A stretch of 64,000 bases of DNA from a virus, in IMG/VR virus record IMGVR_UViG_3300042475_001686, positions 1 through 64,000 of that record; one strand, given 5' to 3'. Below are positions 1 through 48,115 of the stretch, piece after piece. A program made the position numbers and the translations under genes. The number at the start of each line of letters is the position of its first letter. Within the stretch, counting starts at the first letter, position 1. Below the pieces are notes generated by a model. It worked only from the letters and a program-made list of their open reading frames with translations. It made no database searches and was not told the DNA's origin.

Positions 1-146
1 TCCATCTCTGTCATTTCGCCAAACGTATACCAGTCTTTCCAAGGTTTATTGTTTTCATAATACTCAATAATTTCTTCAGGGTTTTTTAATGCATTGTGAA
101 AAACCCAAACAGTATCATGTATTTTTTCAATATTGAAATCAGGCAT
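1..146 (-). CDS. 2OG-Fe(II) oxygenase-like protein, N-terminal part
   Basis: Reads leftward off the window edge; 48 residues are visible. The N-terminus (MPDFNIEKIHDTVWVFHNAL, then a DWYTFGEM segment) resembles the N-terminus of the complete oxygenase at 2299-3189 (aromatic-rich NWQDWYIFGKK). Its ATG overlaps the stop of the upstream gene (TAATG), so it belongs to the same oxygenase operon. The catalytic part lies outside the window; the family call rests on the N-terminal similarity and the neighbours. Confidence 0.7.
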   Translation of the reverse strand, partial: MPDFNIEKIHDTVWVFHNALKNPEEIIEYYENNKPWKDWYTFGEMTEM

Positions 147-877
147 TACATGCCTGCGTTTCTGCTCAAATCCATATTATTGTGAATCCAGTGTCCAGGA
201 ACCATATACTTTACCCCAGACTTTACTGTATGTGCTGTATGGAAATATGGTGCATTTGCTGGGAATATAATAACGCTATTTGCCTTTGGCTTTATTCCAA
301 AGTCAATTGCTTTATTTGCAACTGCATCATCATAATCTAAATTTACTGGGGGAGCACCGTGCACCCATCCGTCTTTGCTATTCCAGCCTCCGTCATAATC
401 CTTTAACTGGAAAGATATTTCTCCTCCCTCACAATCATCATTTAAATACATAACTAGAGAGTACCTGAGTGTCTTGTCTCCATCTAATTGATCAAAGTGT
501 GCTCCCATTGCCATTCCAGTGTAATACTTTTTAATATTAAAAGTTGGAAATAGTCTTGGCTCATCAAAATCACCCATAGCCTCTGCATAATCTTTGCATA
601 CATTATAGAGAGTAGTCATTACTGCATCATAAATATATTTAGACTTTTCTCCAACATTACCGCCAAAGTTTGCTATTGAGTTTGGATCAAATGTTTTAGT
701 TTCTCCATATATGAAATCTTTATCATTAGAAGATGTCCACTTTTGCCAAACATTTACCTGAGAAATATCATCAGACTCCATGGTATCTAACTCATTCAGA
801 GTGGACATAAAATTATCAAAATTTTCTATAGCGTCTGTATAGTAATAAACTTTTGGATCTAAAATTTCTCTATTCAT
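146..877 (-). CDS. 2OG-Fe(II) oxygenase, prolyl 4-hydroxylase-like
   Basis: 243 aa. Double-stranded beta-helix dioxygenase that would couple 2-oxoglutarate decarboxylation to substrate hydroxylation. Visible iron ligands are H127-x-D129 (GAHFDQ) and distal H216, with K223 as probable 2OG anchor in SGVKYM; the YLNDDCEGGEISF strand before the KPKANSVIIFP strand is typical of P4Hc-type proteins. AGGAG precedes the ATG. First complete gene of a tightly packed minus-strand oxygenase array. The substrate is unknown; proline residues of the nearby fibre proteins are a guess. Confidence 0.92.
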   Translation of the reverse strand: MNREILDPKVYYYTDAIENFDNFMSTLNELDTMESDDISQVNVWQKWTSSNDKDFIYGETKTFDPNSIANFGGNVGEKSKYIYDAVMTTLYNVCKDYAEAMGDFDEPRLFPTFNIKKYYTGMAMGAHFDQLDGDKTLRYSLVMYLNDDCEGGEISFQLKDYDGGWNSKDGWVHGAPPVNLDYDDAVANKAIDFGIKPKANSVIIFPANAPYFHTAHTVKSGVKYMVPGHWIHNNMDLSRNAGM

Positions 878-885
878 TATTTCTC

Positions 886-1545
886 CTAGTATTTGTGTTT
901 TTCATAATGTCTTTTTTCCTTTACAAATCCAACTATAACATATCTTATTGGTCCGTCTTGAACATGCTTTACTCCATGCTCATGCTTACTATCTCCAGGG
1001 AAAAATAACAAATCTCCTGGCTTAGGTCTTAGTTCTAAATCCAGATTTTTAAAAAATAGTTCTCCCTCTGCATAATCATCATTGATATAAATAATTGTTG
1101 CATATCTTATAGAAGGATCAGTATCCTGATCAACATGAGACTTTAGTTGTACTTCTGGCTGCATTCTTTGGATTGTAGCAAGACCACTTAGTTCTAATTC
1201 TGGAAACGAATCAACTATAAGATCTGATAGTCTTTTATAGAAAATATGTTGTTCTTCATGATGCTTAATATTTAAGTTTTTGTCTACCCAATTTTGAGTA
1301 ATTTCAAACTTACCCTCAGCAACAAGATTGTCAACATCATCTCTTCCAAACTTTTCCATGCAAAAGTTTTTTAGGTTGCCCATATATTCAACTTCCCAGT
1401 CTTCTTGAGAAGCAGAATTAATAATACCCCAAACAAAGTCTAACTCTTCTTTTGTTAAGAAATCTTTGATAAGTAAAACCTCATCTGTTATTTCTTCAAA
1501 CTTAAGATTATTGGTAGTTAGGTTTTGTTTGAATTTATCAATCAT
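886..1545 (-). CDS. 2OG-Fe(II) oxygenase, prolyl 4-hydroxylase-like
   Basis: 219 aa. H137-x-D139 (SHVDQD), distal H190 (KHEHGV) and R201 (IRYVIV) give a complete 2-His-1-carboxylate plus 2OG-binding set; the YINDDYAEGELFF and RPKPGDLLFFPGD strands are family hallmarks. The start overlaps the end of the upstream oxygenase by 8 nt. The N-terminal 100 residues differ from the neighbours, suggesting a different substrate pocket rather than recent duplication. Confidence 0.92.
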   Translation of the reverse strand: MIDKFKQNLTTNNLKFEEITDEVLLIKDFLTKEELDFVWGIINSASQEDWEVEYMGNLKNFCMEKFGRDDVDNLVAEGKFEITQNWVDKNLNIKHHEEQHIFYKRLSDLIVDSFPELELSGLATIQRMQPEVQLKSHVDQDTDPSIRYATIIYINDDYAEGELFFKNLDLELRPKPGDLLFFPGDSKHEHGVKHVQDGPIRYVIVGFVKEKRHYEKHKY

Positions 1546-2302
1546 GAGGAATTACTCCTGTATCATCAACCTTATATTTATTACCATCAGCATCTAACTT
1601 CCAACCTTGCTTTAGCAACTCTTGCCATTCTGCTCTTTCAATCTCTTGTTTTGCTCTGGTTTCTTTCATCTCTTCTGCCCAGGCATCTCTTAGTTCTTGT
1701 GGATAAGCATCTTCTTCTCTATCATCCCAGAATGAGCCAATAGTGTATCTGACTCCTTTGGTTATTAGAGTTACCTCATGCATATTGTTGAATCCTCCGT
1801 CAAAAGCAGCAAGCATTCCAACTTTAGGCTGTATGCTTATCTCTTGATCTGAAAACTGTAGTAGTCCTCCCTCAAAGTCATCATTTAAATACAAAAATGC
1901 AGCATATCTACTTCTTGTAAAAGCACCAGAGTTGCCATGCTCATCTGTATTATCAGAATGTTTTCTTGCATAAGCACCTGGCTCCCACTTCTGAGTATGA
2001 TACCCAATTTGAGAAATTATGTTACGGTCAAGATCATGGACACTTGCAACAGCGTCAATGATGACCTCTTTTATTTGTGAAAAGATATCAGCAGGCAAGC
2101 CTTCAGAAAGAACATGTTCATCATCATCTTGAGGAAGAACAGAAGAATAAGATTCATAAAAAGATATTGGCATCCAACTAATTGTACCGAGTTCTGCATG
2201 CTTATCTAAAACCCTTACAAGTTTTGCAGCAGTATCAGCATCAATAAAGTTTTCATAAAGGACAATGTCCTTTGTCAGTCTATTTTTATTTTCTAGATTC
2301 AT
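1538..2302 (-). CDS. 2OG-Fe(II) oxygenase with charged C-terminal extension
   Basis: 254 aa. H115-x-D117 (RKHSDN), H175 (MHEVTL) and R185 (GVRYTI) are visible in a DSBH core with YLNDDFEGGLLQF. After the core, about 60 residues form a Lys/Glu/Trp-rich tail with probable coiled-coil character that the other paralogs lack. Overlaps the upstream gene by 4 nt (ATGA-type coupling) and the downstream gene by 8 nt. Confidence 0.9.
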   Translation of the reverse strand: MNLENKNRLTKDIVLYENFIDADTAAKLVRVLDKHAELGTISWMPISFYESYSSVLPQDDDEHVLSEGLPADIFSQIKEVIIDAVASVHDLDRNIISQIGYHTQKWEPGAYARKHSDNTDEHGNSGAFTRSRYAAFLYLNDDFEGGLLQFSDQEISIQPKVGMLAAFDGGFNNMHEVTLITKGVRYTIGSFWDDREEDAYPQELRDAWAEEMKETRAKQEIERAEWQELLKQGWKLDADGNKYKVDDTGVIPHD

Positions 2303-3189
2303 TTTATTCTAATTGCTCCTTCTATGACAGTTCTCTGTGGATGTTCTGTCATATAATCTTCTTGCATTTTTCTAAATACTTCAGGCCATTCTTCTTTGCC
2401 ATACTCTTCTTCCTTCTTTTTCCACTCATCAGAAGCGTCTTCGTAAACCTGCCAGTACATTCTTGTAAAGAACTTTTCATTTTCTTTACAGTTTTCTGCA
2501 GCATGTAGGTATACCTCGTTATCTTTAGTAAGGTAATCAGGATGTCCAGATGGAAAAACCAAGAAATCTCCAGCCTTTGGCTTGTAGTTAATAAGTTTAT
2601 TTCCTATAGCAAAATCTACCCCACCCTTTAAATAGTTATCATTCAAATATGTGGTTGTAGTAAGTACAAACTTATATCCTGGACTCTTTATTGATTCTCT
2701 AATATAATCAGAATGGTATCTCATTGCAAGTTCCCCGCCATTCCACTCTGATCCTTCTGAGTCTACAAAATAACGACATAGGGATGGGCCAGTCCAATTC
2801 CATTTAGGGTGATCTACTCCATAAGAACGAACTGTTTCATTTTTTTCATCTGGTATAGATAGGTTATGCTTTGACATATAGTCATTATTTACCAAATGGA
2901 ATGCTCTAACTAATTCTGTGATAAAGTATCTCTGATCCTCCTGAACCTTACTTGTTGGATCTATATCTTTTAAAATCTTAAGTTCTGTTGCAGTTTTATC
3001 AAAATGAAGTCCGAACTTTTCAATCTTTTTACCGAAGATATACCAATCTTGCCAATTTTCCCATATTGCATCATCATAATCATTAACTGAATCTTTAGCA
3101 ATCTGATACATTCTTTCTGGATCTTCAAATACATTGTTGTAAACAAATATATTTGGATATATCTCTTCTGCTGTAAAGTTTGTACTCAT
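2299..3189 (-). CDS. 2OG-Fe(II) oxygenase, long N-terminal domain
   Basis: 296 aa, the longest of the array. H159-x-D161 (RYHSDY), H229 (YLHAAEN) and R243 (FTRMYW) form the active site; TYLNDNYLKGGVDF replaces the usual LNDD strand. About 140 residues precede the catalytic core and resemble the visible N-terminus at the window's left edge. No strong Shine-Dalgarno sequence is seen (GGGGAATAATGTAATTATG), so coupling to the upstream gene is likely. Confidence 0.9.
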   Translation of the reverse strand: MSTNFTAEEIYPNIFVYNNVFEDPERMYQIAKDSVNDYDDAIWENWQDWYIFGKKIEKFGLHFDKTATELKILKDIDPTSKVQEDQRYFITELVRAFHLVNNDYMSKHNLSIPDEKNETVRSYGVDHPKWNWTGPSLCRYFVDSEGSEWNGGELAMRYHSDYIRESIKSPGYKFVLTTTTYLNDNYLKGGVDFAIGNKLINYKPKAGDFLVFPSGHPDYLTKDNEVYLHAAENCKENEKFFTRMYWQVYEDASDEWKKKEEEYGKEEWPEVFRKMQEDYMTEHPQRTVIEGAIRIK

Positions 3190-3191
3190 AA

Positions 3192-3944
3192 TTACATTAT
3201 TCCCCTTCTAGGATCCCACTGTGATGTCTGTTCAGCAGTAGGGAAAATCCTATAATACTCTTTATTAAAATCTGGCTTAATCTCTCCAGTATGTTCTAAA
3301 ATTTCCCAAAAGAATGGGCAAGTATATCTATCTCCACTTATTACTTCTGATACACCGTGTACATAGTTCATATCGCCTGGGAAGAAATATGCAGAACCTC
3401 TTTTTGGCTTAAACTGTATTCCCTGATTTGGGAAATAGAGTTCTCCTCCTACATAGTCATCGTTTATATAGAATAAACTTGCTATGTCGTAATAAGGAAA
3501 GTCATTGGGCTTTCCAGCGTCTGGTCCAGAGTGTAATTCTTTATCTGCATGCGGAAGTTGATAATATCCTGGTGGCCACTTTACAATTGTTTGTCCTGTT
3601 GGTTGAACTTTTACTTTAAAAAAATCTTCAATGATTGGCTGAAGTCTATTAAAAAGTCCTACTATAACAGGAACAATTTCTGGATTATTTTTATTTAATG
3701 ATGGGGCACTAGCAACTCTATCTTTCCAATATCCAGCATCATATATTACAGTACCGTTTTCGTTTTTATGGCTTTCGGTTACATCCCAAACAGTGATGCT
3801 TCTGGCTGCATTATCTAAAAAGTCAACCTCTTCTTGTGTCATAAAGTTTTCTAGTTCAATAATATTTTCAGGACCACTTCCGAAAAACCCTGATGGGGTT
3901 AAGGATGGTTTTCTAACAACCTCTACTGCTTCTTCTGGCATCAT
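3192..3944 (-). CDS. 2OG-Fe(II) oxygenase, prolyl 4-hydroxylase-like
   Basis: About 250 aa. H-A-D (LPHADK, near residue 132), H of YVHGVSE (near 196) and R of GDRYTC (near 206) form the active site; FYINDDYVGGELYFP is intact. Three ATGs stand in a row. TATAAT (3951-3956) lies exactly 6 nt upstream of the second, so I place the start at 3944 and expect a leaderless mRNA. This promoter may drive the first part of the oxygenase array. Confidence 0.9.
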   Translation of the reverse strand: MMPEEAVEVVRKPSLTPSGFFGSGPENIIELENFMTQEEVDFLDNAARSITVWDVTESHKNENGTVIYDAGYWKDRVASAPSLNKNNPEIVPVIVGLFNRLQPIIEDFFKVKVQPTGQTIVKWPPGYYQLPHADKELHSGPDAGKPNDFPYYDIASLFYINDDYVGGELYFPNQGIQFKPKRGSAYFFPGDMNYVHGVSEVISGDRYTCPFFWEILEHTGEIKPDFNKEYYRIFPTAEQTSQWDPRRGIM

Positions 3945-3956
3945 CATTATATTATA
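3945..3956 (-). promoter_or_regulatory. leaderless -10 (TATAAT-N6-ATG)
   Basis: TATAAT at 3951-3956 on the minus strand with six bases before the second ATG of the oxygenase gene and no Shine-Dalgarno sequence between. This matches the spacing found at many other genes of the window. Confidence 0.7.
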
Positions 3957-4667
3957 TCACCCTGTTACCGTATTATCTTTTACAGAAAGTCTTAATGTCT
4001 TCACTTCATGAGAACCTAAAGACTCTCCCTTTTCATTTACTGCATCTCTATACCAGTCTGTCCACTGCCCAGATGAATTGACAACCTGTGCTGCCTGCCC
4101 ATAGTCTGACAGAGCCTTAAGCCTTAAGCCACCTTCATCAGTATAATTATTAATCTCGATAGAGGTATTGTTTAAGTGAGTTAGAGAAATAGGAATAATT
4201 GTAGCAATTGGAGTTCCTGCCTTTATTACAGTCTCAACATTTGCCCTTTTTGCCTTAATAGCAAGTGGTAATGGATTATCATAAAATGATGTGCTAATTA
4301 AATTTGATAATGTTTCAAAGTCTTCATTAAAATAATTAACTGGATTAATTGTTAAAATGCTTACATCTGGATCTGTTCTAAATACCAAAGATGTATTGAG
4401 ACTTACTGTAGATTGACCTCTTCCAGCATAGGAACCTTCTGGACTCGTAATAGTTATATGTTGATCTGTTTGATCATTAATACCGTCCCATGTAAATACT
4501 ATATCCTGAGTACAAGAAATATTCCATCCTACGACATTAGCCTGAGTTACTGGAAAACATCTGTATGCATGCTTTTCAGAAGTTACATCCATCCAATCTC
4601 TTTTTATAGACATTGGTTCTATTTTGAAAATTCCACCATGCATTTTTTCTACAGATATATTAAACAT
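3957..4667 (-). CDS. DUF6065-like protein
   Basis: 236 aa, function unknown. Sequence features (CFPVTQANVVGW, a later WDG, and AGTPIATIIPISL near the C-terminal third) parallel the protein at 5359-6135, which has ITFTKN and GTPYLQVLPFKREN at matching places; the two are distant paralogs. I associate them with DUF6065 from memory only. It sits between oxygenase genes, with its stop just before the next promoter, suggesting partnership with the oxygenases or their substrates. Confidence 0.6.
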   Translation of the reverse strand: MFNISVEKMHGGIFKIEPMSIKRDWMDVTSEKHAYRCFPVTQANVVGWNISCTQDIVFTWDGINDQTDQHITITSPEGSYAGRGQSTVSLNTSLVFRTDPDVSILTINPVNYFNEDFETLSNLISTSFYDNPLPLAIKAKRANVETVIKAGTPIATIIPISLTHLNNTSIEINNYTDEGGLRLKALSDYGQAAQVVNSSGQWTDWYRDAVNEKGESLGSHEVKTLRLSVKDNTVTG

Positions 4668-5350
4668 TATTCATTTTCCCACTTTGGATCATACATGTCT
4701 GGAGTATGAAACTTTTTGCTATAGTCTAGCATTGTTACAATAGAATATTTTGTTCCAGAGTGAACTGGCATTGCTTGATGTGGATACATAAAGTTAGAAG
4801 GGAAGATATATAAATCTCCTGCCTTTGGTTTAATATTTAAGTCCTGTAATCTAAAATATAACTCTCCGCCATCGTAATCATCATTGATGTATGCTACCAA
4901 AGATACGGTACAGTTATACGAATAACCGTGGTCATGATGTTCCTTGAAGTGCTGACCTGGACCATACTTAATAAAGTTAAATGCTTCCCAATACTTTAGT
5001 GGCATAATGTTGTAATCTCTACGATAGTCATCAACTGCTGGAGCCTGTGCATCATAAACATCCTGCCATATTTTTTGTAACAATAAAGACTCTTCGCTTG
5101 GATCTGACTCAATGTCTGTCTTTTTATACTTAAAATCATAGCAATCACGATAGTCTGGCATTAATTGCTGATACCCAACATATGCTGGTAGCCAGTGATA
5201 TCTTTTTCCTTCTGGAGATAACTCTCCCCAAGGTGCTGGACTGCCCAAGACATCTTCCAATCTATTTATAATATCTAAATTTGGTTTAATAACATTTCTA
5301 TAAACCGTTATTCCATGACCAAGACTTTCTTTTTCTGTCCAAGTTGACAT
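4667..5350 (-). CDS. 2OG-Fe(II) oxygenase, prolyl 4-hydroxylase-like
   Basis: 227 aa from the chosen start. H138-x-D140 (EHHDHG), H191 (YPHQAMP) and K201 (GTKYSIV) are the expected metal and 2OG residues; YINDDYDGGELYF and KPKAGDLYIFPSN are intact. A longer frame begins at 5383, but AGGAG stands 5 nt before the ATG at 5350 and the longer start would overlap the upstream gene by 25 nt, so 5350 is preferred. Closest in appearance to the enzyme at 6135-6842. Confidence 0.92.
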   Translation of the reverse strand: MSTWTEKESLGHGITVYRNVIKPNLDIINRLEDVLGSPAPWGELSPEGKRYHWLPAYVGYQQLMPDYRDCYDFKYKKTDIESDPSEESLLLQKIWQDVYDAQAPAVDDYRRDYNIMPLKYWEAFNFIKYGPGQHFKEHHDHGYSYNCTVSLVAYINDDYDGGELYFRLQDLNIKPKAGDLYIFPSNFMYPHQAMPVHSGTKYSIVTMLDYSKKFHTPDMYDPKWENE

Positions 5351-5358
5351 CTTTGCTC

Positions 5359-6135
5359 CTATTTGTATTCTCTTCTTGTCCAAACTTTATCTTTGTATAC
5401 CCCGCCATCTGGCTGGCGATAAAAGTTTGCGTTATCTACCATTTTACCATAGATCTTGCTTGACTCCAAAATGTCAATATCATGTTGCCAATTTTCTCTT
5501 TTAAAAGGCAATACTTGTAAATATGGAGTTCCTGCTGGGATTGTTCCTTCCCAACCATCTACAATAAAAAATGGAAAACTTCCTAATACTTCTACCTTAT
5601 CAGAATCCACTACTCCTGTTGTATTAAGAAATGGTAGATCAAACCTATTCATTGGGGTCATGAATAAAGCACTGTATCCTTCTGGCAGCCTCATTCCCCA
5701 GTCTGGCATCCATGCAAAATGATCTTTATAGTATCCTTTAGGGTGTTCAAATTGTGGCATCTGTGGCCTTGCTGTACAAAAATCTTTATACATTTCATTT
5801 TGAATTTTCATATCTAGAGATCCTCTAGAGTTTTTAGTAAATGTTATATCACAAGGAGTTTTAAAAACATACCCAGTAATAAAAGCATCCATAATTGCTG
5901 GACAGGCTTTCCATGTTGGTATCATTCCATAATCGTCTGTTGTTCCAGGTTTTGGGAATGGACACACCTCTCTTGGTGCTTTATAGTATTCTCCATTTAC
6001 AGGATTTTTAGCAAACCTATCTGCATCCTTATACCATTGTGGTATTTCTTTTTGTGTTGGAGTTGGAGTAGACTTACTTTTTTCTGTTAGCCAAGGCCTG
6101 TATGCCTTAAAAGATACTAAATTGTACTCATCCAT
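5359..6135 (-). CDS. DUF6065-like protein
   Basis: 258 aa, function unknown. The N-terminal third is rich in Pro/Lys/Trp (PWLTEKSKSTPTP, IPQWYKDADRF), followed by VCPFPKPGTTDD, WKACPAIMDAF and a C-terminal AGTPYLQVLPFKRENW segment. Paralogous to 3957-4667. Its start overlaps the stop of the upstream oxygenase (TAATG). The alternation oxygenase / DUF6065-like / oxygenase / DUF6065-like suggests a functional pairing; no catalytic residues are evident to me. Confidence 0.6.
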   Translation of the reverse strand: MDEYNLVSFKAYRPWLTEKSKSTPTPTQKEIPQWYKDADRFAKNPVNGEYYKAPREVCPFPKPGTTDDYGMIPTWKACPAIMDAFITGYVFKTPCDITFTKNSRGSLDMKIQNEMYKDFCTARPQMPQFEHPKGYYKDHFAWMPDWGMRLPEGYSALFMTPMNRFDLPFLNTTGVVDSDKVEVLGSFPFFIVDGWEGTIPAGTPYLQVLPFKRENWQHDIDILESSKIYGKMVDNANFYRQPDGGVYKDKVWTRREYK

Positions 6136-6842
6136 TACTTATGACCTAACTCATTAATATCAGTCATGATTACGACACAATATTTTGTACCGCTCTTCAT
6201 TGGAAGAGATGCATGCTCATAAATGTAGTTAGATGGGAAAACCGCAATATCTCCGACTCTTGGCTTATGAATATATCCATCTAAGCGTGGGAACTGAATT
6301 TCTCCGCCATCATAGTCGTCATTGATATATATAACTGCTGAAACTGTAGCATTGTAGGCTGGTCCATGGTCAGCATGAATATTGAAGTGTTTTCCTTCAC
6401 CTTCATACTTTACAAAATTAAATGCCTCATAATAGACAACACTAATTCCCCAATACGCTGCATAATTATCTATACAAAACTTTAATTTTTGATAAATTTC
6501 TTCATGAAGATCTATTAACTCTCCATTAAATTCATCTCTTGGCCCTAAGTTTTCTTGCTTATATTTAAAGTCTACACAATCTCTTGCTTTCTTGATTGGT
6601 GTTGTTGAATTAGTTACCTGTGCTTCTGACCAAGCATATCTCTTAGTGCCGTCTAAATTTGACTCAAGTGTTTTAATATATCTATCGGCATCATCTTTAC
6701 TAAAAACATTTCTATAAATATTAAGACCAAGGCCAGGATTTTCTACAACTATTCCACTAGGCAGGGTGCTTGTTGGATATCTATTTGATGCGGTCTCAGA
6801 TCTATCTTTTGTAAACCAGTGGTTTTGATTCTCATCATACAT
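6135..6842 (-). CDS. 2OG-Fe(II) oxygenase, prolyl 4-hydroxylase-like
   Basis: 235 aa. H156-x-D158 (NIHADHG), H210 (YEHASLP) and K220 (GTKYCVV) are visible with YINDDYDGGEIQFP. AAGGAG precedes the ATG. Paralog of 4667-5350: both have CxDFKYK near residue 90 and YxEAFNFxKY before the HxD motif. First gene of this array when read in the direction of transcription. Confidence 0.92.
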   Translation of the reverse strand: MYDENQNHWFTKDRSETASNRYPTSTLPSGIVVENPGLGLNIYRNVFSKDDADRYIKTLESNLDGTKRYAWSEAQVTNSTTPIKKARDCVDFKYKQENLGPRDEFNGELIDLHEEIYQKLKFCIDNYAAYWGISVVYYEAFNFVKYEGEGKHFNIHADHGPAYNATVSAVIYINDDYDGGEIQFPRLDGYIHKPRVGDIAVFPSNYIYEHASLPMKSGTKYCVVIMTDINELGHK

Positions 6843-6890
6843 AGTTATTTTTCTCCTTGTTAATATAGTATATCATAAATATGAAAAATT

Positions 6891-7352
6891 TTAATTGCTT
6901 TCTGGTGGGTAAAAATTATTTCCATCCCACAAATAACCCAAAACTACTTCTGGAAAGTCTGTGGCATCTAGGCCTATAACTTTTGATGTCATTGCAGCCT
7001 GCCATTTTTGACTATAAAACTCATCTACCTTTTTTATAAGATGTGCTCCAAAAACAACCTTATCAGTATTTAAAAATGCATAGGATATAAAGTTTTCATG
7101 TACTTCAATTCTATTTATTGTTGTTTTGGGAATAAACTTTGTACCGTCCCAAATTGATCCTATATCAAATGTTTTTGGGGTAGGGTTTAAACTAGAAACA
7201 TCAATAACCTCTACATCATTATTTGAAAATCCTTCAGACCAACGCTTTAAAGGATCTGGATACTGTTCTGTAACAAAAAATATATCAAAAACTTCATATA
7301 TATTTTCAAACTCTTCTAATTTTACAGCAAATACAAATTTTTTTTCAATCAC
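6891..7352 (-). CDS. hypothetical virion-associated protein with WDG repeats
   Basis: 153 aa, unrecognised. Two short repeats, GSIWDGTKFIP near residue 66 and GYLWDGNNFYPP at the C-terminus, resemble the GxxWDGxxF motif common at the ends of phage tail-associated proteins. Starts with GTG (GGAG 5 nt upstream) overlapping the stop of the zinc-ribbon gene. Confidence 0.55.
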   Translation of the reverse strand: MIEKKFVFAVKLEEFENIYEVFDIFFVTEQYPDPLKRWSEGFSNNDVEVIDVSSLNPTPKTFDIGSIWDGTKFIPKTTINRIEVHENFISYAFLNTDKVVFGAHLIKKVDEFYSQKWQAAMTSKVIGLDATDFPEVVLGYLWDGNNFYPPESN

Positions 7353-7591
7353 AAAGACTCCTTACTCCAAAAGCCTAAAGGACATTCTGCATTTTTTAAT
7401 TTAGTTTTTGCTACCATAAAACATCCACATTTTGTGCACTGTTTCGTAGCCTGTACTAAATGTGGACAAGCATTACATATAGACATTCTAGATTCAACTA
7501 TTTTTGTATCATTAATTAATTGTTTTGGATCTAATAAATGCCAAGGACGTGAGTCCCCAAGATTTTTTTTCCAATTTGACCAACCACTCAT
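7349..7591 (-). CDS. small zinc-ribbon protein, copy 1 (DUF6171-like)
   Basis: 80 aa. Eight-residue-spaced Cys pairs, CNACPHL...TKQCTKCGCFM...CPLGFW, suggest one or two structural zinc sites. Preceded by a conserved RPWHLLDP segment. Two further paralogs lie at 16375-16614 and 26177-26380 with the same RPWHLL/LFDP, CxxC, CxKCGC and CPxGxW landmarks. TATACT is 7 nt upstream of the ATG, so the mRNA is probably leaderless. Function unknown. Confidence 0.75.
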   Translation of the reverse strand: MSGWSNWKKNLGDSRPWHLLDPKQLINDTKIVESRMSICNACPHLVQATKQCTKCGCFMVAKTKLKNAECPLGFWSKESL

Positions 7592-7604
7592 ACTTAATAG
7601 TATA
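7592..7604 (-). promoter_or_regulatory. leaderless -10 (TATACT-N7-ATG)
   Basis: TATACT (minus strand, 7599-7604) is seven bases before the ATG of the zinc-ribbon gene, with no Shine-Dalgarno sequence between. Confidence 0.55.
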
Positions 7605-7624
7605 TCACATCAGGTTTTGATGTT

Positions 7625-8416
7625 CTATACTACTTGGTCGTAGATTGCTTTATCTATATTGTCAAAAGATTCAATTCTTGCAATTTCATCTGAAGAAAGA
7701 GCGTCAAGAATGTCTGCTGTAGATGAAGGACCAGAAGGTAGTTCTGATGAACCTTCATTTACAACCTTGCTCATATCAAATGTTATATTTACATTATAGT
7801 TTTCATTAAACCATGCTGATATATCTTGACATGTTAAGTTAAGATTATCGTACTTATGCACAGAATAGAATGAAGATAAGTTACTCATAGCATTTTCTAA
7901 ACTAGTATTTTCATTACCAACAAACCAGGAAAATGCTTTTGATGTTGCAAGATCTTTGACTGCCTGAAGTTTATATTTATTTTGAGTAAATAACTCTGCA
8001 TCAAAAATCATAGAATCGGCAGGGTTACATATAAATCTTGCCTGCATATTTTTATGAATTTCAAAATTTGGATCATCAAAAACATAGTGCTTAAATTTAT
8101 CTGTTATTGATTCAAATTTAGTATAATCTGATCTTTTACTAAATACTCTATCATATAAATAAACAAAGATACTTGCTCTTACTTCTACTGGGTTTCTAAC
8201 TACTGACACAACATCTATATCTGGATTAACTGTTATTGGATATGTTCCCCAGTGCCCCGCAAGAAATACTTGTTCTGAAAGATTAACAGTATGAGGAGTA
8301 TATCCATCTCTTGTGTAATATGACAAGGAATTAGCATCTAAAACTGGAGATACAGATTCCTTTATAAAGTTTCCACCTGTTCTTGGTGAATGTAACACAT
8401 ATAGTTGCTTAGTCAT
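7625..8416 (-). CDS. sulfotransferase-like protein
   Basis: 263 aa. The N-terminal VLHSPRTGGNFIKE matches the 5'-phosphosulfate-binding loop of PAPS sulfotransferases and the downstream VVSVVRNPVEVRASIF matches the 3'-phosphate-binding block; GHWGTYP lies between, as in the family. Would transfer sulfate from PAPS to a sugar or tyrosine acceptor, which cannot be told from sequence. GAGGAG precedes the ATG. It lies directly downstream of a repeat-containing fibre gene, so virion decoration is a reasonable guess. Confidence 0.75.
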   Translation of the reverse strand: MTKQLYVLHSPRTGGNFIKESVSPVLDANSLSYYTRDGYTPHTVNLSEQVFLAGHWGTYPITVNPDIDVVSVVRNPVEVRASIFVYLYDRVFSKRSDYTKFESITDKFKHYVFDDPNFEIHKNMQARFICNPADSMIFDAELFTQNKYKLQAVKDLATSKAFSWFVGNENTSLENAMSNLSSFYSVHKYDNLNLTCQDISAWFNENYNVNITFDMSKVVNEGSSELPSGPSSTADILDALSSDEIARIESFDNIDKAIYDQVV

Positions 8417-8464
8417 TTTGCTCCTCTACTATCTTTGTTTTAGTTATCATCATATCATATTCCT

Positions 8465-9556
8465 TTAACCCTGGCAGTTTCCACAATTGCTTGAAGAGCA
8501 CCATAGTGATGGTGGGCAACCCCAAGGATTATTGGACTGGTTTCCGCATTCGCCACTGCAGGATGGGGCTGACACGAAAGAAGGTGGGAAGAACGGGAAG
8601 AATGGGAAGAACGGTGGGAAGAACGGGAAGAACGGTGGGAAGAACGGGAAGAATGGGAAGAATGGTGGGAAGAACGGGAAGAACGGTGGGAAGAACGGGA
8701 AGAATGGGAAATAAGGTGGGAAGAACGGGAAGAATGGTGGGAAGAATGGGAAGAACGGGAAGTAAGGTGGGAAGAACGGGAAGTAAGGTGGGAAGAATGG
8801 GAAGAAGGGTGGGAAGAATGGTGGGAAGAATGGGAAGAATGGTGGGAAGAACGGGAAGAATGGTGGGAAGAATGGGAAGAAGGGTGGGAAAAATGGAGGG
8901 AAAAACGGCGGGAAGAATGGAAAGAACGGCGGGGTAGTATTAACAGTTCCAGTTGTAGCACCTGCAGATGATCCATTACCATTAATTGCAACAATAGTAT
9001 ATGTCTGAGATCCTGGTGCTGCTCCTGGGTCATTAGCATCATATGATGTTGCAGCAGCAGAAATACCAGTGTAACTTGATCCATCTGAACCAGTAATTGT
9101 ATAGGAGGTAATTGCTTTACCACCAGTTGCTGGTGCTGTCCATGTTATTCTGTTTGTATTTGCAGACAAAGCAGATCCAGAAGGTGATCCTGGTGTGTTT
9201 GGTACAGTTGTTACTGTAATTGATCCAGTTGTATCTGTTGCTGGGTTTGAGTTTGCTGTACCAGCATTATTCTTACCTCTAACAGTAACTGTATAAGTTC
9301 CAGCAGGAAGTCCAGTTAGTGTATATGAGGTTGAAGATGATCCTGTCTCAACTGTGCTAGTTGCTGGGTTTGTAGTAACTACATAAGTTGTTGCTGCAGG
9401 AGAAGTAGCAGGCAAAGTCCAAGATAAGTTAATCGCACCATTATTCCAACCTCTACCAGTTCCTACATCTGTACCAGTTAGACCTGTTACTGGATCTGGT
9501 TGTAAAAAGTTATCCTGTGCTGATGACTTAATACCTTTTCTTTTGCTTGTTGCCAT
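8465..9556 (-). CDS. Fn3-domain fibre protein with FFPPFF repeat and Cys-rich tail
   Basis: 363 aa. Residues about 25-205 form two fibronectin type III-like domains (INLSWTLPA...YTLTGLPAGTYTVTV and NRITWTAPATGGKAITSYTI). Residues about 209-330 are almost only Phe and Pro in FFP/FFPP units, with occasional Tyr. The last 35 residues are Cys-rich (CSGECG, CPPSLWC, CGNCQG). The repeat and Cys module recur in the protein at 16636-18009. Probably a surface-exposed tail or fibre component. GGAG precedes the start. I know no described family with such a repeat. Confidence 0.85.
   Translation of the reverse strand: MATSKRKGIKSSAQDNFLQPDPVTGLTGTDVGTGRGWNNGAINLSWTLPATSPAATTYVVTTNPATSTVETGSSSTSYTLTGLPAGTYTVTVRGKNNAGTANSNPATDTTGSITVTTVPNTPGSPSGSALSANTNRITWTAPATGGKAITSYTITGSDGSSYTGISAAATSYDANDPGAAPGSQTYTIVAINGNGSSAGATTGTVNTTPPFFPFFPPFFPPFFPPFFPFFPPFFPFFPPFFPFFPPFFPPFFPFFPPYFPFFPPYFPFFPFFPPFFPFFPPYFPFFPFFPPFFPFFPPFFPFFPFFPPFFPFFPPFFPFFPFFPPSFVSAPSCSGECGNQSNNPWGCPPSLWCSSSNCGNCQG
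8574..8935 (+). repeat. polypurine GGGAAGAAYGG tandem repeat (coding, antisense)
   Basis: About 360 bp in which the + strand is built from GGGAAGAACGG / GGGAAGAATGG / GGTGGGAAGAA units and is nearly pure purine. The minus strand encodes the FFPP repeat. The tract could form triplex or slip during replication, giving length variation of the Phe/Pro domain. Confidence 0.9.
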
Positions 9557-9587
9557 GCTATTCTCCTTTTTCTACTATTAAATTTTA

Positions 9588-11555
9588 TTACGCTGAGAGG
9601 TCGCCCATTACTACCCATGTATCTGTTGCTCTCTTGAAAAGAGTTGCAGATGACCACTGAGCACGTAACTTCAAACCTGGTGTAGCATTTACAGTTACAC
9701 CTACTGCTCCAGCAATTGTAATCTGACCTGCGCCAACCTGTAGTAGATCGATAGATGTTCCTACTGGGAAGGCTGTGGTTGAATTTGCTGGAATTGTTAC
9801 AGTAAATCCTGTTGCCTTATTGCATTCAATCATGCTATCTCTCAAGGCTAATCCACCTGTAGAGAGGTTATAGGTATCTGTTACTGTATTGATTGTAGTT
9901 CTTGATGGAACGCCTTCTTTTGTTTGAGTTCCGTCTGAGAAAACCACTCCAGAAGATGGAGTAACTGTGGTAGCCTCAAGTGCTCCTACAGCCAAGGCAT
10001 CTAAAGATCCTTGTGTAAAGTTTACAGTTGTTGTAGGTTCGTCTGTAACACCCTTAAACAACTTCCACTTTCCAGCAGATGAGTCACGAACAATACCTGC
10101 ATGCTGATATGTTCCATCGTTAAAGGATGAAACAATACCAAGGTCAACAAGGTTTCCTGTGTTTCCTTCACCGATATAAATAAGTGGGTCAGAAACCACT
10201 AAGTCTGTAGCAGAAACTGTTGTTGTTGTTCCTTGTACTGTAAGGTTGCCAGTAACAGTAAGTGCTGCTGCCGTAGTAGTTCCAGTAAATGTTGGTCCAG
10301 CGAGATTAGCCTTAAGGTCAAGTGCTGTTTGTGTAGCAGTTGAAACTGGCTTATCTGCATCTGATGTATTGTCTACATTTCCTAATCCAACCATTGTCTT
10401 TGTGATACCTGCAACGGTACCAGTAAATGTTGGTGAAGCAAGTGGAGCCTTTGCAGCAAGATCTGTAGTGAGATCTGCAATCTTAGACTGTGCAATTGCT
10501 GCTGAAGCATTTATGTCAGCATTTACAATTGTGCCATCTGCAATCTTGGCAGAAGTTACTGCACCATCAAGAATTTTAGCAGATGTAACAGCATCTCCAG
10601 CAATCTTGTCTGCAGTTACAGCAGAGTTAACAATCTTATCTGTTGAAACTGTATTATCTGTTGGAGTTCTTGTATCTGAAAGACGAGCATCGTCTGTTAG
10701 AACAAGTGCTGTAGTGTCTGCAATGCCGTGTACGCTTGTTGTATCTGAAGTGTGAGCATTTAGAGCACCTGTTATTTCTGTTCCAACATATGACTGTGTT
10801 GCAAGTTCTGCAGTGTCTACAATTCCGTGTACGTTAGTTGTAACTGCACTGTGAACAGTTGCTGAATCTACATATGCTTGGGTAGCAAGATCTGCTGTAT
10901 TACCAATACCATGTACGTTTGTTGTGTCTGAGTTATGTGCACTTACGGCACCTGATACTGCATTATCTGCATATGTTTGGGTAGCAAGATCTGCTGTATT
11001 TGCAATACCATGAACATTTGTTGTATCATTGTTATGCTCTGCTAAGTCTGCATCAAGAACAATAAGACTTGTGTCTGCAATGCCATGTACGTTTGTGCTA
11101 TCAGAATTATGTGTGCTTACTGCACCATCAGCATATGCTTCAGTAGCAAGGTCTGCTGTATTTACAATTCCATGTACATTTGTTGTAACAGCATTATGTA
11201 CTTCTGCAGCATCTACATATGCCTCAGTGGCAAGGTCTGCTGTATTTGTAATTCCGTGCACATTAGTGGAAAGATTTGTATGAGAAGAGAGATTTGTTGC
11301 TACTGTTATAAAGAAATCTGGATCGTCGCCAAGAGCAGCAGCGAGTTCGTTGAGTGTATTAAGAACACCTGGAGCGCCGTCTAGGATCGCATTTCCATCT
11401 ACATAATAGTTTAGGGCAGACCATAGTGATGATCCATTACCTATCTTAAACTTACCTGTGTCGGTTTCAAAACCGATTTCACCTGCTGCTAAAATTGGGT
11501 TAGCGCCTGACCACTGTGCTGCGGTTCCTCTGCGCTGTTGCATTCTTGTTGCCAT
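9588..11555 (-). CDS. long tail-fibre protein with VHGI repeats
   Basis: 655 aa. The N-terminus (QQRRGTAAQWSGANPILAAG, then GEIGFETDTGKFKIGNGSS) is the virion-attachment type seen in many tail fibres and tropism determinants. Residues about 90-285 hold seven TxVHGIxxTAxLA repeats, a trimeric-shaft-like pattern. A GLGNVDNTSDADKPVS segment follows, then a C-terminal domain (ECNKATGFTVTIP ... WVVMGDLSA) shared with 18017-18646. AAGGAG is upstream. Receptor binding is the likely role. Confidence 0.88.
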   Translation of the reverse strand: MATRMQQRRGTAAQWSGANPILAAGEIGFETDTGKFKIGNGSSLWSALNYYVDGNAILDGAPGVLNTLNELAAALGDDPDFFITVATNLSSHTNLSTNVHGITNTADLATEAYVDAAEVHNAVTTNVHGIVNTADLATEAYADGAVSTHNSDSTNVHGIADTSLIVLDADLAEHNNDTTNVHGIANTADLATQTYADNAVSGAVSAHNSDTTNVHGIGNTADLATQAYVDSATVHSAVTTNVHGIVDTAELATQSYVGTEITGALNAHTSDTTSVHGIADTTALVLTDDARLSDTRTPTDNTVSTDKIVNSAVTADKIAGDAVTSAKILDGAVTSAKIADGTIVNADINASAAIAQSKIADLTTDLAAKAPLASPTFTGTVAGITKTMVGLGNVDNTSDADKPVSTATQTALDLKANLAGPTFTGTTTAAALTVTGNLTVQGTTTTVSATDLVVSDPLIYIGEGNTGNLVDLGIVSSFNDGTYQHAGIVRDSSAGKWKLFKGVTDEPTTTVNFTQGSLDALAVGALEATTVTPSSGVVFSDGTQTKEGVPSRTTINTVTDTYNLSTGGLALRDSMIECNKATGFTVTIPANSTTAFPVGTSIDLLQVGAGQITIAGAVGVTVNATPGLKLRAQWSSATLFKRATDTWVVMGDLSA

Positions 11556-20924: not shown

Positions 20925-21647
20925 TTATATCACAGATACATATATAGAATTCATTATTACTGAGGAGTCGTAATCGGTTCTGATTTGAGGTACTGCCCCA
21001 GAACTCCACATGGAGTTATTTTCTATAAAGAAATGTTGTGTTACGTACATATTGTAGACATATTGGTATTTTAAAGATGCTACAAACTGTGAAATTTCGG
21101 TGGTAGATTTAGGGAAAAATGTTCTCATCCAAACCTCTGTATTATTAGAGTTAGTAGTTAACTCAAAGTTATAAGTGACAATTACTTGCGATCCTATTTT
21201 TAGGCCGTGTAGATTAAGCATTCTTTGTTCTGCATTCCATAGGCTTGTGCATCCTTCTGGCAGATATTTCTCGTTTGTATTACTGCCCTTCGAATCTACC
21301 CAAACATTTACCCAGCCATCTTCTCCACGATCAATGCCAAGGCTTACTGGTTTTCTGTTATCGTTAAAATATGCTGCCCATCCTGCTTGTTGTCCAGACG
21401 AAGATAAGGAACTTAGACCGTCTTTACCAGGTGTGCCTCTTTCGCCTTTGGGGCCTGGTGTGCCGTCTTTTCCAGCAGGTCCTTGAGGTCCAGGTAGGCC
21501 CTGTGGTCCTTGAGGCCCCTGTGGCCCAGGAACGGGTACATAGTTGATTAATACATCTGCATTTGTTGTTTGTGTTTGAACTACTTGTGCAGCATAACTA
21601 GATTTTTTGCTGCTATTTGGAAAGTCCATGGATTTAGAAACTGGCAT
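20925..21647 (-). CDS. collagen-like fibre protein
   Basis: 240 aa. Residues about 34-74 are Gly-X-Y triplets ([20 protein letters not shown], then [17 protein letters not shown]), a likely triple helix. The C-terminal ~150 residues form a globular head ([47 protein letters not shown]). GATAAT is 6 nt from the ATG. The prolines in the triplets are potential substrates for the oxygenases encoded in this window. Confidence 0.85.
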
Positions 21648-26813: not shown

Positions 26814-27665
26814 TTATATGCTAAGTGATGGTTCCTTAATGCTAGAAGCATCTGAAGGAGCAACCAAGTTATTTACTGGATTAATAATAGACTTGCGTCC
26901 CATCATTAATTCTTCAATATTCTGACATACAACTGTCCACTCTTCTTCAAATATTTTCTTAGAGCGTCCCATGCCGATGTCGATCTGATCTGATCTTCCT
27001 TCCTTTGCTGCCATTTCTTTTACTGTCTTTTCAGAGTCCCAGTTAAGAATTGTGCATTGGAAATGCTTATCAACATATCCATCCTTGTCGACAAGATACT
27101 TTTCAAAGTTTCCACCCATGTATAGTCCATCATAGAAACCACGATTTAACCACCAGGAGAAGTATTTATCTCTAAACATTTCTCTGTGATCCATTCCAGT
27201 ATTGTTTACTTTTTCTTTAGCAGCAATCTGGTGCTTTCTGATTTCTAGATATAACTCGTGTGGTTCACCAAAAGGTTGTCCAAGTCCGTTATGTCCTGGC
27301 TCTACTCCTAACTGCTGGCTTACGCCTGAACCTGGAATTGAAGATACCATTTGTGAGAATTGAAAAGTTGTTCCATAAACATCTTTTCCGTAATTTGCTG
27401 AGTCTGCTCCACAAGTAATACCTTCTGACCATTTACCGTGTGTGATTCCAGGACCACAATAGTCATTGGTTGGAATAGCAACTATCTGAAAGTGCTCTCC
27501 ACCGTACTTATCTTGTAGCCATTGTAAAACTTCCATTTGATTTGCGTTACCGCATCCAACCGTAGTGTTAACAACTAGGGTTACTTTTCCTCTAAATTGC
27601 TCTAGGAAGTTGGTCTGCCCGTCGGCAGAATCTAATGATATATCGTATATAGATTTAAGTGTCAT
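26814..27665 (-). CDS. glutathione peroxidase-like thiol peroxidase
   Basis: 283 aa. The thioredoxin-fold GPx core is visible: FRGKVTLVVNTTVGCGNANQ (peroxidatic Cys about C38 in the place of Sec/Cys), LQWLQDKYGGEHFQIVAIPT and FEKYLVDKDGYV late. It is about 120 residues longer than typical GPx because of inserted loops and a C-terminal tail. Probably reduces peroxides; complements KatG encoded at 48 kb. AGGAGG before the ATG. Confidence 0.75.
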   Translation of the reverse strand: MTLKSIYDISLDSADGQTNFLEQFRGKVTLVVNTTVGCGNANQMEVLQWLQDKYGGEHFQIVAIPTNDYCGPGITHGKWSEGITCGADSANYGKDVYGTTFQFSQMVSSIPGSGVSQQLGVEPGHNGLGQPFGEPHELYLEIRKHQIAAKEKVNNTGMDHREMFRDKYFSWWLNRGFYDGLYMGGNFEKYLVDKDGYVDKHFQCTILNWDSEKTVKEMAAKEGRSDQIDIGMGRSKKIFEEEWTVVCQNIEELMMGRKSIINPVNNLVAPSDASSIKEPSLSI

Positions 27666-41203: not shown

Positions 41204-41722
41204 TTAATAAGATGTTATTTTTGAGCGGGGTATATAATTAACGTTAATAACCTGTCTCATTGGTCCCATATGTGGTGTACACCATGAATGTTTAGAACCA
41301 TCAAACAAGATAGCAGCACCACGTTTGGGTGATATTGAGTGAACTATCTCCAAACCATCATAGATCAAGGTGTCTCCGTATGCATCATTAACGTAATATA
41401 GAAAAACCAGGTGATATGCGGACATGTCTGTATGTGGGGTTGATACTATAGTCTTTGTATTAGGGGGTGTCATGTTGAATTTGACTCTACTCACTATACC
41501 CTCGCCAATTTGGTATTTGTTTAGCATTTTATTTAGGATAAACCTTGTAGCCTTATATTCTGGTGTATTTTCTTCATGGTCTGAGGTAAAGTATTTGATG
41601 TTACCTTCATCATCGACCTTATCTAAAATATTACAATATTGCCATTTATAAACAGAATTGAATATAGTATCTATATCATCTATTTCCTGGTCGCTTAGGA
41701 AATTATCATCATATATGAACAT
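41204..41722 (-). CDS. 2OG-Fe(II) oxygenase, short form
   Basis: 172 aa. H97-x-D99 (TPHTDM), H145 (SKHSWCT) and R156 (MRQVIN) complete the active site; YYVNDAYGDTLIY replaces LNDD. Shorter than the left-end paralogs, close to a minimal DSBH. Upstream has TATAAT but a 25-nt leader with no clear Shine-Dalgarno. Confidence 0.82.
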   Translation of the reverse strand: MFIYDDNFLSDQEIDDIDTIFNSVYKWQYCNILDKVDDEGNIKYFTSDHEENTPEYKATRFILNKMLNKYQIGEGIVSRVKFNMTPPNTKTIVSTPHTDMSAYHLVFLYYVNDAYGDTLIYDGLEIVHSISPKRGAAILFDGSKHSWCTPHMGPMRQVINVNYIPRSKITSY

Positions 41723-41844: not shown

Positions 41845-42642
41845 TTATTTTTTATATCTTTGTGCTTTAATATCAAGCAATATATGATCTGTTACACCTT
41901 TGTGCTCTAATATTGCCTCATTCATTAGATGATATTCTTCACCCAACGCCGAAGAATAACCAAATTCAGAATGTATGACCATAAAAATATAATATTTTTC
42001 ACCATCAGTAACTTCTTCAGCAACATGCACTGTTGTACAAGGAAATATTAACGCACTTCCAGCAGATGGTTTTATTTTAATATCTAAATCTGGGAACAGT
42101 ATCTCTCCCCCAGAATAGTTATCATTGAGATAAAATAAAACTGACCAATCCATTGTATTTAATGGATTGTCTACATTTTTGTCAACATGTGGACCTATTT
42201 TACCTCCTACTTTATACTTTCTGAGAAAATAGTTTTTAGATATATACTCTAAATCTTTATTGCCAGTTTTTTCAGACCAAATTTTTATAATTTCTTTGTA
42301 CGGCTTATCTATAAGATCAATAGTTTTTTCTACAGTTTTGTGTGCATAATCTTCAAACACATATTCTGGTCTTGGCCAAAATAAATTATAGTTACTGGCA
42401 GATCTATCCCAATCAAATAATTTTTGTTTGCCTTTTGAATATGTATCTATCTGCATTTTCCAGTCATTTTCTGAGCCACTGCCTTTTACTGGACGACTAT
42501 CTCTCCAGTCTTCCCACGGCGGTATGACTGAGTGTGTTAATTCGTCAAGATCATATTTCTCTATTTGCTGTATAAAGTATTCTGATTCAGGAAGGGCATC
42601 TTCTATATAAAGTATGCCCATGGGAAGTTCTGTAATTTTCAT
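41845..42642 (-). CDS. 2OG-Fe(II) oxygenase
   Basis: 265 aa. H152-x-D154 (GPHVDK), H206 (TVHVAEE) and K216 (GEKYYIF) form the active site; FYLNDNYSGGEILFP is intact. Leaderless: TATAAT 6 nt from the ATG. Divergent from the next oxygenase gene, giving a small oxygenase island separate from the left-end array. Confidence 0.9.
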   Translation of the reverse strand: MKITELPMGILYIEDALPESEYFIQQIEKYDLDELTHSVIPPWEDWRDSRPVKGSGSENDWKMQIDTYSKGKQKLFDWDRSASNYNLFWPRPEYVFEDYAHKTVEKTIDLIDKPYKEIIKIWSEKTGNKDLEYISKNYFLRKYKVGGKIGPHVDKNVDNPLNTMDWSVLFYLNDNYSGGEILFPDLDIKIKPSAGSALIFPCTTVHVAEEVTDGEKYYIFMVIHSEFGYSSALGEEYHLMNEAILEHKGVTDHILLDIKAQRYKK

Positions 42643-42696: not shown

Positions 42697-43485
42697 ATGC
42701 CTAATTACGATTTATTAGAAGTTAAAGATCCACAAAAACTGCAAACCCTGAAGGATATCTGGGAGCCACGCAAAGAGTTCATCGAAAAAGATCTTTGGGT
42801 TATTCGTAACTTTTTGAGTGAAGAAGAACTTGAATGGCTAAATAAAGAAGCAATTGATCCAAACGGATGGTATCCAACTATGCGCTCCCCATATGGTGGA
42901 AATATTAGAAATAAGTTTCTTGGCTATGTTCCTGAGTATGGCGAAGATGGCATTTTAATTCCACCTCATCCAAAAAATAATCCAGTATTTGTTCCAGTAC
43001 CATTTCTTAATGATATTGAGGATAGATTAGAGTCTGTTTTGCCAAAATACTTTGCTGGTGCTGGAGCACTGCAATCATTTTTTGAAGTTTCAGAAGATGA
43101 ACCTCTTGTTTACAATCCAGATCAAAAAGTGAAAGATGTTGATTGGGCCATGGGTTGGCACTACGAGAGAGATGACGAAGATACAAAAGAAAAACAATTT
43201 ACAATAGTCGCTGAATCATCTAATAAGGCTGCAGTTATGTCAGAAACAATTATATCTGCATCATTTAATGTTTATATTAATGATAATTTTAATGGTGGTA
43301 TTTTAGAATTTAAAAACAAGGATTACTCCATCAAACCAGAACCAGGTATGCTAATTAACATTCCATTATATAAGGAGTTTGAGCATCGTGTTACTAAGGT
43401 AACTAAAGGTAATAGACATACTCTTTATGGAAGATGTTGGGAAGATATCAATAAATCTTTTTTATCTTCAAGAGAAGACTGTTAA
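42697..43485 (+). CDS. 2OG-Fe(II) oxygenase, HxE variant
   Basis: 262 aa. Core strands VYINDNFNGGILEFKN and IKPEPGMLINIPLYKEFEHR are family-like, with H230 and R240 (GNRHTLYG). The first metal motif reads H155-Y-E157 (GWHYERDDED) instead of HxD, either a Glu ligand variant or a shifted or inactive site. The long insert after it (DTKEKQFTIVAESSNKAAVM) is atypical. Confidence 0.82.
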   Translation: MPNYDLLEVKDPQKLQTLKDIWEPRKEFIEKDLWVIRNFLSEEELEWLNKEAIDPNGWYPTMRSPYGGNIRNKFLGYVPEYGEDGILIPPHPKNNPVFVPVPFLNDIEDRLESVLPKYFAGAGALQSFFEVSEDEPLVYNPDQKVKDVDWAMGWHYERDDEDTKEKQFTIVAESSNKAAVMSETIISASFNVYINDNFNGGILEFKNKDYSIKPEPGMLINIPLYKEFEHRVTKVTKGNRHTLYGRCWEDINKSFLSSREDC

Positions 43486-47818: not shown

Positions 47819-47822
47819 CTTT

Positions 47823-47895: not shown

Positions 47896-47899
47896 CTAA

Positions 47900-47972: not shown

Positions 47973-47987
47973 CTACAATAGTAATAT

Positions 47988-48060: not shown

Positions 48061-48061
48061 C

Positions 48062-48111: not shown

Positions 48112-48115
48112 ATAT

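Follow-up and report, generated by a model that had tools for sequence, protein, structure and literature searches.

Gene content of the array

The first 6842 nucleotides of IMG/VR virus record IMGVR_UViG_3300042475_001686 carry a tightly packed set of genes for 2-oxoglutarate (2OG)-Fe(II) oxygenases, and this array, its neighbours and its possible substrate are the subject of the present analysis. We refer to positions 1 to 64,000, the 64 kb stretch that was analysed, as the window; it is part of a record of 117,492 bp. Gene calls and matches to PF13640 (cut-off 27 bits) gave seven complete oxygenase genes and one partial one at 1-6842, all on the minus strand, in agreement with a sequence-only reading of this DNA. 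That reading had taken the whole span for a packed oxygenase array: the oxygenases are real, but two genes within the span, D1 and D2, encode DUF6065-like proteins instead. The genes on which our argument draws are:

1-146, minus strand: A1, an eighth array oxygenase truncated at the record end, of which this is the first part (complete in contig L012, where it has 283 aa)
146-877, minus strand: A2, 2OG-Fe(II) oxygenase (PF13640, 37.8 bits; HDH plus K in 63 of 64 orthologues, the remaining one gapped)
886-1545, minus strand: A3, 2OG-Fe(II) oxygenase (PF13640, 43.4 bits)
1538-2302, minus strand: A4, 2OG-Fe(II) oxygenase (PF13640, 39.2 bits)
2299-3189, minus strand: A5, 2OG-Fe(II) oxygenase, fast-evolving and absent in some loci (PF13640, 22.2 bits, below cut-off; ligands retained)
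3192-3947, minus strand: A6, 2OG-Fe(II) oxygenase (PF13640, 32.1 bits)
3957-4667, minus strand: D1, DUF6065 protein, not an oxygenase (PF19541, 99.7 bits; phrog_7084)
4667-5383, minus strand: A7, 2OG-Fe(II) oxygenase with a prolyl 4-hydroxylase-like predicted structure (PF13640, 59.1 bits)
5359-6135, minus strand: D2, DUF6065-like protein with a dUTPase-like predicted fold (phrog_7084, 114 bits)
6135-6842, minus strand: A8, 2OG-Fe(II) oxygenase, sister of A7 (PF13640, 42.3 bits; tree support 100/96)
8465-9556, minus strand: fn3 fibre protein with a C-terminal (P/PP)-(F/Y)-F repeat (PFF repeat) followed by a Cys-rich tail, the proposed substrate (fn3, 44.4 bits)
9588-11555, minus strand: tail fibre protein with an Mtd_N domain, in a run with the fn3-PFF fibre (PF18454, 58.6 bits; tail PHROGs)
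20925-21647, minus strand: protein with a collagen-like Gly-X-Y stretch, an alternative or additional candidate substrate (PF01391, 30.6 bits)

The record ends meet inside the array, which comprises nine oxygenases in this phage: L012, identical to the record over 7000 of 7000 bases, joins the two ends with 35 bases between them. At the far end of the record lie the rest of A1, a short-chain dehydrogenase/reductase (SDR) gene, a further oxygenase (A0), a gene that we presume to be FkbM-like, a third DUF6065-like gene (D0) and a B12-type ribonucleotide reductase (RNR) gene. The order is thus fibres, Mtd_N fibre, fn3-PFF fibre, three small genes, A8, D2, A7, D1, A6, A5, A4, A3, A2, A1, SDR, A0, FkbM-like gene, D0, RNR, a 1249 aa protein and the portal. 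From 146 to 11555 all genes are on one strand; several overlap, and no gap exceeds 48 bp. For one of these genes, at 7625-8416, a sulfotransferase-like label was backed by no match in family searches. By its portal, which is 47% identical to its nearest named relatives, those of Streptomyces phages, the virus may infect actinobacteria.

The array as an old, syntenic cassette

Of the seven complete array genes, all but A5 score above the PF13640 cut-off (32.1-59.1 bits). In a 12-sequence alignment, the two His residues that open and close the triad never vary, and HxD is replaced by HxE only in the protein encoded at 42697-43485. Across the window and the related loci, the H..D/E..H triad was found in 506 of 516 oxygenase domains, the other 10 having only alignment gaps there; 502 of the 516 also retain the basic R/K residue, the remainder again being gapped. 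The full catalytic set that the sequence-only reading had seen in the left-end enzymes is therefore present, and the loss of metal ligands in most copies that it had raised as a counter-possibility is ruled out by the alignment. The array genes are catalytically intact as far as these residues go, and we predict 2OG/Fe-dependent catalysis for their products.

A phylogeny of the catalytic cores, called for by the same reading as a way to recognize recent duplicates, instead separated the genes by position. In a 108-row tree A0, A1, A2, A4, A5 and A8 each form a single supported group, A3 has support of 89/97, and the A6 and A7 groups are each disturbed by one long-branch row only (B1, described below, and L075_A7_260); the only supported sister pairs are A7 with A8 and A1 with A5. 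This rules out recent duplication and identifies the array oxygenases as old, divergent paralogues. Pairwise ratios of nonsynonymous to synonymous substitution, computed against up to eight loci, were 0.01-0.23 for A2-A4, A6-A8, D1 and D2 and 0.08-0.45 for A5, which indicates purifying selection on these genes.

We searched viral contigs with D2, which matched 126 stretches, and used the best 80. All 80 of these best-matching loci contain at least three array oxygenases and at least two DUF6065-like genes, and the 21 that were read as maps share one gene order, with A8, D2, A7, D1, A6, A4, A3 and A2 present in every map and A5, A1, A0, the SDR, the FkbM-like gene and D0 as the variable parts. 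What these loci share is an old cassette of conserved gene order, situated in the tail module. One alternative is that the array acts on glycans or at the host surface, in which case the SDR, the FkbM-like gene and the remaining variable genes would form its sugar-related part; the SDR (family match 147.3 bits) and the glycosyltransferases elsewhere in the window would suit this role. The sugar-type genes are, however, the variable ones, set against eight genes found in all 21 maps; PF11397, one of the glycosyltransferase families, occurs in no more than 4 of 33 related records, and the FkbM-like label is backed by no Pfam or NCBIfam match. We consider such a system quite unlikely.

A side observation concerns annotation: phrog_274, phrog_2297 and phrog_3531, which carry the names DNA endonuclease (V) and ferrochelatase, match the 2OG oxygenase domains of the array. 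These names, and the pairing of ferrochelatase with 2OG genes described in passages on pelagiphages in PMC9599517, may be annotation artefacts.

Co-occurrence of the array with a fibre-tip repeat

The unit of the repeat at the C terminus of the fn3 fibre is P or PP followed by two aromatic residues: across 2258 units from 115 distinct proteins, the first aromatic position holds F 2066 times and Y 161 times, and the second holds F 2245 times. The repeat lacks Lys and Arg, its proline codons in the window differ synonymously, and a Cys-rich end follows in 59 of 122 distinct repeat proteins.

The repeat and the array were found together from either starting point. Among the D2 loci, a repeat gene lies upstream in all 49 that extend at least 3 kb in that direction (31 of the 80, with less, were set aside). 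Conversely, a search with a nucleotide pattern of the repeat gave at least 120 matching stretches, of which 80 were examined: 3 had no repeat open reading frame by our rule and 31 had less than 4 kb downstream (15 of these with an oxygenase), and in 43 of the 46 others an oxygenase follows on the same strand within 4 kb, the exceptions being L097, L111 and L139. At the level of whole records, PF13640 matches were present in 23 of 30 chosen from the repeat and D2 loci.

The portal gene provided a starting point of another kind. It gave at least 600 matches, from which 80 loci were picked; in the 36 that extend 9 kb or more upstream, an oxygenase was found in 20, two or more in 9, and a DUF6065-like gene in 15. 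The array is thus not universal among portal relatives. In a portal-only set of 40 records of at least 19 kb, searched over their whole length, an array (at least four PF13640 matches on one strand within 10 kb) was present in six: G051, G057, G061, G022, G038 and G078. Five of these six contain the repeat, versus none of the 34 without an array, and in the sixth (G061) the contig stops inside A8, before the expected position of the repeat gene. The probability that all five repeats would fall among the six is 9e-6, kinship being ignored; many of the 34 records counted as lacking an array are fragments, including L221 (37 kb), whose portal is identical to that of the window. On a 41-row portal tree, the array label requires six changes, compared with a mean of 6.6 for shuffled labels, and the array has therefore been gained, lost or swapped repeatedly. 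The array and the PFF repeat come and go together.

Likeness to peptide prolyl hydroxylases

A7, the one oxygenase that we modelled, gave a predicted structure with a predicted local distance difference test (pLDDT) score of 85.1 and a predicted template modelling (pTM) score of 0.83. Its best match was 3gze, an algal prolyl 4-hydroxylase (P4H) with a (Ser-Pro)5 peptide (Z 19.1, rmsd 2.7 over 174 residues), followed by PHD2, a bacterial P4H, PiuC and LH3. In predicted structure, in the HxD..H residues and in the Lys, A7 resembles the peptide P4Hs as a group (algal Cr-P4H, the Pseudomonas and Bacillus enzymes, PHD2 and PBCV-1 vCPH), but its identity to them is only ~12-22% in structural alignments. 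The model thus has a P4H-type fold, and prolyl hydroxylase-like activity of A7 is predicted. Profile comparisons of other members of the array matched A4 to prolyl 3-hydroxylase 1 (P3H1; E 5.6e-6), A6 to the Bacillus anthracis P4H (E 3e-4), and A7 with A8 to LH3 (E 2.6e-4).

That collagen hydroxylases are among the closest structures raises the possibility that the oxygenases act chiefly on another tail protein rather than on the PFF repeat, for example the Mtd_N fibre or the collagen-like protein at 20925-21647, whose Gly-X-Y stretch has Pro and Lys at the Y place; PF01391 is present in 21 of the 33 records. Collagen matches nevertheless do not track the array, with 25 in G002, which has no PF13640 match, and none in several oxygenase-rich records, G025 and G001 among them, and we think it unlikely that such a protein is the principal target. 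G002 is the 38 kb record of locus L139 and also encodes a PFF-repeat protein.

The DUF6065-like proteins and the nucleobase alternative

PF19541 (DUF6065; cut-off 26.6 bits) is exceeded by D1 only: D0 reaches 15.3 bits and D2 has no Pfam match. A purpose-built profile links both D2 and D0 to the family, as phrog_7084 also does for D2. A sequence search of the PDB for DUF6065 found none. The AlphaFold model of D2 (pLDDT 74.3, pTM 0.68) matched dUTPases with Z 10.0 and an rmsd of 3.2 over 127 residues, and 200 of 998 chains scored Z of at least 8. Judged by eye, D2 and D0 contain a GVVDSD-like stretch, which resembles dUTPase motif 3 and which is replaced in D1; the others of the five catalytic dUTPase motifs are not evident by eye. 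D2 thus resembles the dUTPases in predicted fold, with this one motif-like stretch seen, and we propose a dUTPase-like fold for it without claiming dUTPase activity.

Elsewhere, tandem DUF6065-like genes, 45-46% identical to D2, occur on contigs from gammaproteobacterial bins (L214 9962-11490, L216 9986-11470), and stand-alone copies in the gammaproteobacterial loci L212, L213 and L215; the context of these five bacterial loci, stand-alone or tandem, indicated no function. D2 matched 49 named records. In haloviruses, represented by Halorubrum phage HF2 (L092 8857-9741), the DUF6065-like gene adjoins an RNR gene and is near tail genes.

With the fold of D2, the RNR gene beside D0 and the similar placement in HF2, one could read the oxygenases, the DUF6065-like proteins, the SDR and the RNR as a single nucleobase pathway for nucleotide or DNA modification, an outcome that the sequence-only reading had named as contrary to its own proposal. 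The predicted fold of D2 and the adjacent RNR fit such a pathway, but the structural neighbours of A7 give it no support: folds and profiles indicate peptide prolyl or lysyl hydroxylases, and Tet_JBP matches are below cut-off. Furthermore, no relative of thymidylate synthase or hydroxymethylase was found among the proteins scanned, which cover part of the genes only, and the array is located among tail genes. We judge a nucleobase pathway very unlikely.

Other fibre tips and their neighbours

Portal relatives without the array retain an fn3 fibre with different ends. We tabulated 88 distinct fn3 fibres for which 4 kb or more of downstream sequence was available, classing tips over the whole protein; the PFF fibres came from D2 loci (44) and repeat-selected loci (28) and the other tips from portal loci, so that the table is not selection-free. 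Of its 72 PFF tips, 68 have an array nearby (at least three of its oxygenases within 5 kb) and none has a member of a family that we call HKFF. The FGF-repeat tips show the reverse (HKFF in 7 of 7, array in 0 of 7), the Hint-like tips have HKFF in 2 of 4 and the array in 0 of 4, and the five CEPYD tips have neither. Two of the PFF fibres run on into a domain of Hint-like type. Other fn3 fibres with Hint or intein-like ends are found at L044 3032-4384, L236 1645-2958 (PF14890, 19.1 bits, below cut-off) and L300 1498-2907.

HKFF proteins are ~220 aa long, occur in tandem and often stand behind FGF-repeat or Hint-like tips (L225 1703-3000, L249 1208-3203, L285 347-3148). With HxH, GHxH and R conserved, they recall 2OG oxygenases, but there was no Pfam match of note, the match to phrog_2696 was weak, and the hhalign probability was 5%. 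A comparison with the PDB gave no match of note either, and HKFF corresponds to no known family.

A proposed role in finishing the fibre tip

We propose that the array is a late gene set of the tail module that would chemically finish the tip of the tail fibre. Late in infection, the oxygenases would consume 2OG and O2 and hydroxylate the prolines of the PFF repeat, perhaps together with other residues in it, with the DUF6065-like proteins as putative binding or presenting partners; hydroxylation could render this very hydrophobic tip soluble, adhesive or open to further modification. The need for several enzymes, the role of D1 and D2, the timing of expression and the purpose of the modification are all things that we infer here. 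On the core of the proposal, that a tip-specific set of oxygenases hydroxylates the candidate fibre tip, we are evenly divided. A broader version we put forward only tentatively. In it, a constant fn3 fibre would bear one of several exchangeable C-terminal tips, low-complexity or Hint-like, each accompanied by its own modifying enzymes; seven to nine dedicated prolyl hydroxylase-like enzymes, working in series, would turn the PFF tip into a new kind of aromatic-proline adhesive that is heavily hydroxylated. The sequence-only reading had deduced many distinct substrates from the divergent N-terminal halves of the enzymes; the strict co-occurrence with one fibre-tip repeat fits a single, multiply modified substrate equally well.

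Several observations weigh against hydroxylation of the tip. The A2 profile matches P4H only weakly (E 0.32). PFF repeats also occur in G002 and six shorter records, all without a PF13640 match, and four of the 72 PFF fibres (L065, L044, L156 and L162) fall short of three array oxygenases in the 5 kb range. Oxygenase sets of cyanophages adjoin tail fibre genes but also lie among replication genes, as in P-SSM2, and the RNR next door and the predicted fold of D2 would suit work on nucleotides. Finally, fibre and array, being neighbours, may have been swapped as one recombination block with no enzyme-substrate link between them.

Comparison with other viruses

Large sets of 2OG genes are already known from phages. 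According to passages in PMC9602691 and PMC9964418, cyanophages usually have one to five, S-CREM1 ten and S-SCSM1 24, so the density in the window, which the sequence-only reading had called exceptional, is unusual but not unmatched. Seven of the S-SCSM1 genes lie within ~9 kb around tail fibre genes. The T4-like cyanophages S-SCSM1, S-CREM1 and S-SSM7 likewise have numerous PF13640 paralogues that have diverged from one another, some of them standing in runs next to genes for tail fibres (PMC9602691 and PMC9964418, in part). However, the five cyanophage regions that we compared list no DUF6065 or PFF gene (their genomes were not searched throughout for the repeat), and identities of A7 to its 40 best matches in named phages are low (25.6-42%). 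Pelagiphages have eight 2OG types, as given in a passage of PMC9599517; Phold likens phage 2OG proteins to the prolyl hydroxylase EGLN3 (PMC12774648, in part); and a passage of PMC9301287 mentions viral P4H together with collagen in tail fibres and calls their use cryptic. The role of 2OG oxygenases in viruses has, by a statement in PMC9602691, not been specifically investigated.

The view published for S-SCSM1, again in a passage of PMC9602691, is that such oxygenases are auxiliary metabolic genes that alter host metabolism or the levels of 2OG, nitrogen or iron during infection. This is the usual proposal for the cyanophage homologues, and related cyanophage genes also stand among replication genes. 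It accords poorly with the position of our array in the tail module, its fixed order and its co-variation with a fibre-tip repeat, and for this array we find it improbable.

For the proposed hydroxylation of the fibre tip, an algal virus offers a precedent. Work by Eriksson from 1999 reportedly concerns, to judge by its title, a viral prolyl 4-hydroxylase of PBCV-1 and viral hydroxyproline. There too a virus-encoded P4H has been proposed to modify a viral structural protein; it differs in being a single enzyme with a collagen-like substrate, whereas our phage has an array beside a PFF repeat. Our search of the open-licence literature found no paper on the PFFPPFF repeat or on DUF6065, and no paper was found that brings together collagen-like proteins, phage tails and prolyl hydroxylase; an array with a candidate substrate was not found described. 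With its conservation and its link to a single fibre-tip repeat, the array offers a concrete, testable substrate for the 2OG oxygenases common in aquatic phages. If the proposal is true, phages would build receptor-binding tips by extensive post-translational hydroxylation, and many genes now called auxiliary metabolic genes would shift to virion assembly.

Further oxygenases and other genes of the window

Three more oxygenases, one with HxE, and a cupin/JmjC-like neighbour had been pointed out at 41-43.5 kb; PF13640 and PHROG matches, the alignment and a JmjC_2 match confirm them:

41204-41722, minus strand: B1, 2OG oxygenase-like (PF13640, 21.6 bits; phrog_274, 103.8 bits; ligands in alignment)
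41845-42642, minus strand: B2, 2OG oxygenase (PF13640, 47.7 bits; PHROG support)
42697-43485, plus strand: B3, 2OG oxygenase-like, HxE (PF13640, 22.0 bits; PHROG support; alignment)
43505-44044, plus strand: cupin/JmjC-like neighbour (JmjC_2, 25.7 bits, cut-off 22; Cupin_2, 26.1 bits, below cut-off)

Three other genes of the window were considered as partners of the array and ruled out, each being present in only 4 of the 33 related records. These are a full-length catalase-peroxidase gene, katG, at 48309-50393 (TIGR00198, 1002.8 bits), a tryptophan halogenase gene at 55577-57121 (PF04820, 352.2 bits; cyanophage S-SSM7 is one of its four records) and the PF11397 glycosyltransferase gene at 52670-53737 (79.6 bits), which has no PDB relative of note and belongs to what is presumably the family of the Skp1 hydroxyproline GlcNAc transferase. 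KatG also has matches in seven named phage records, several of which look like bacterial sequence. The window further includes a glutathione peroxidase-like gene (26814-27665, 39.6 bits), an HSP20 gene (52185-52604, 71.8 bits) and seven tRNA genes around katG (47745-50474).

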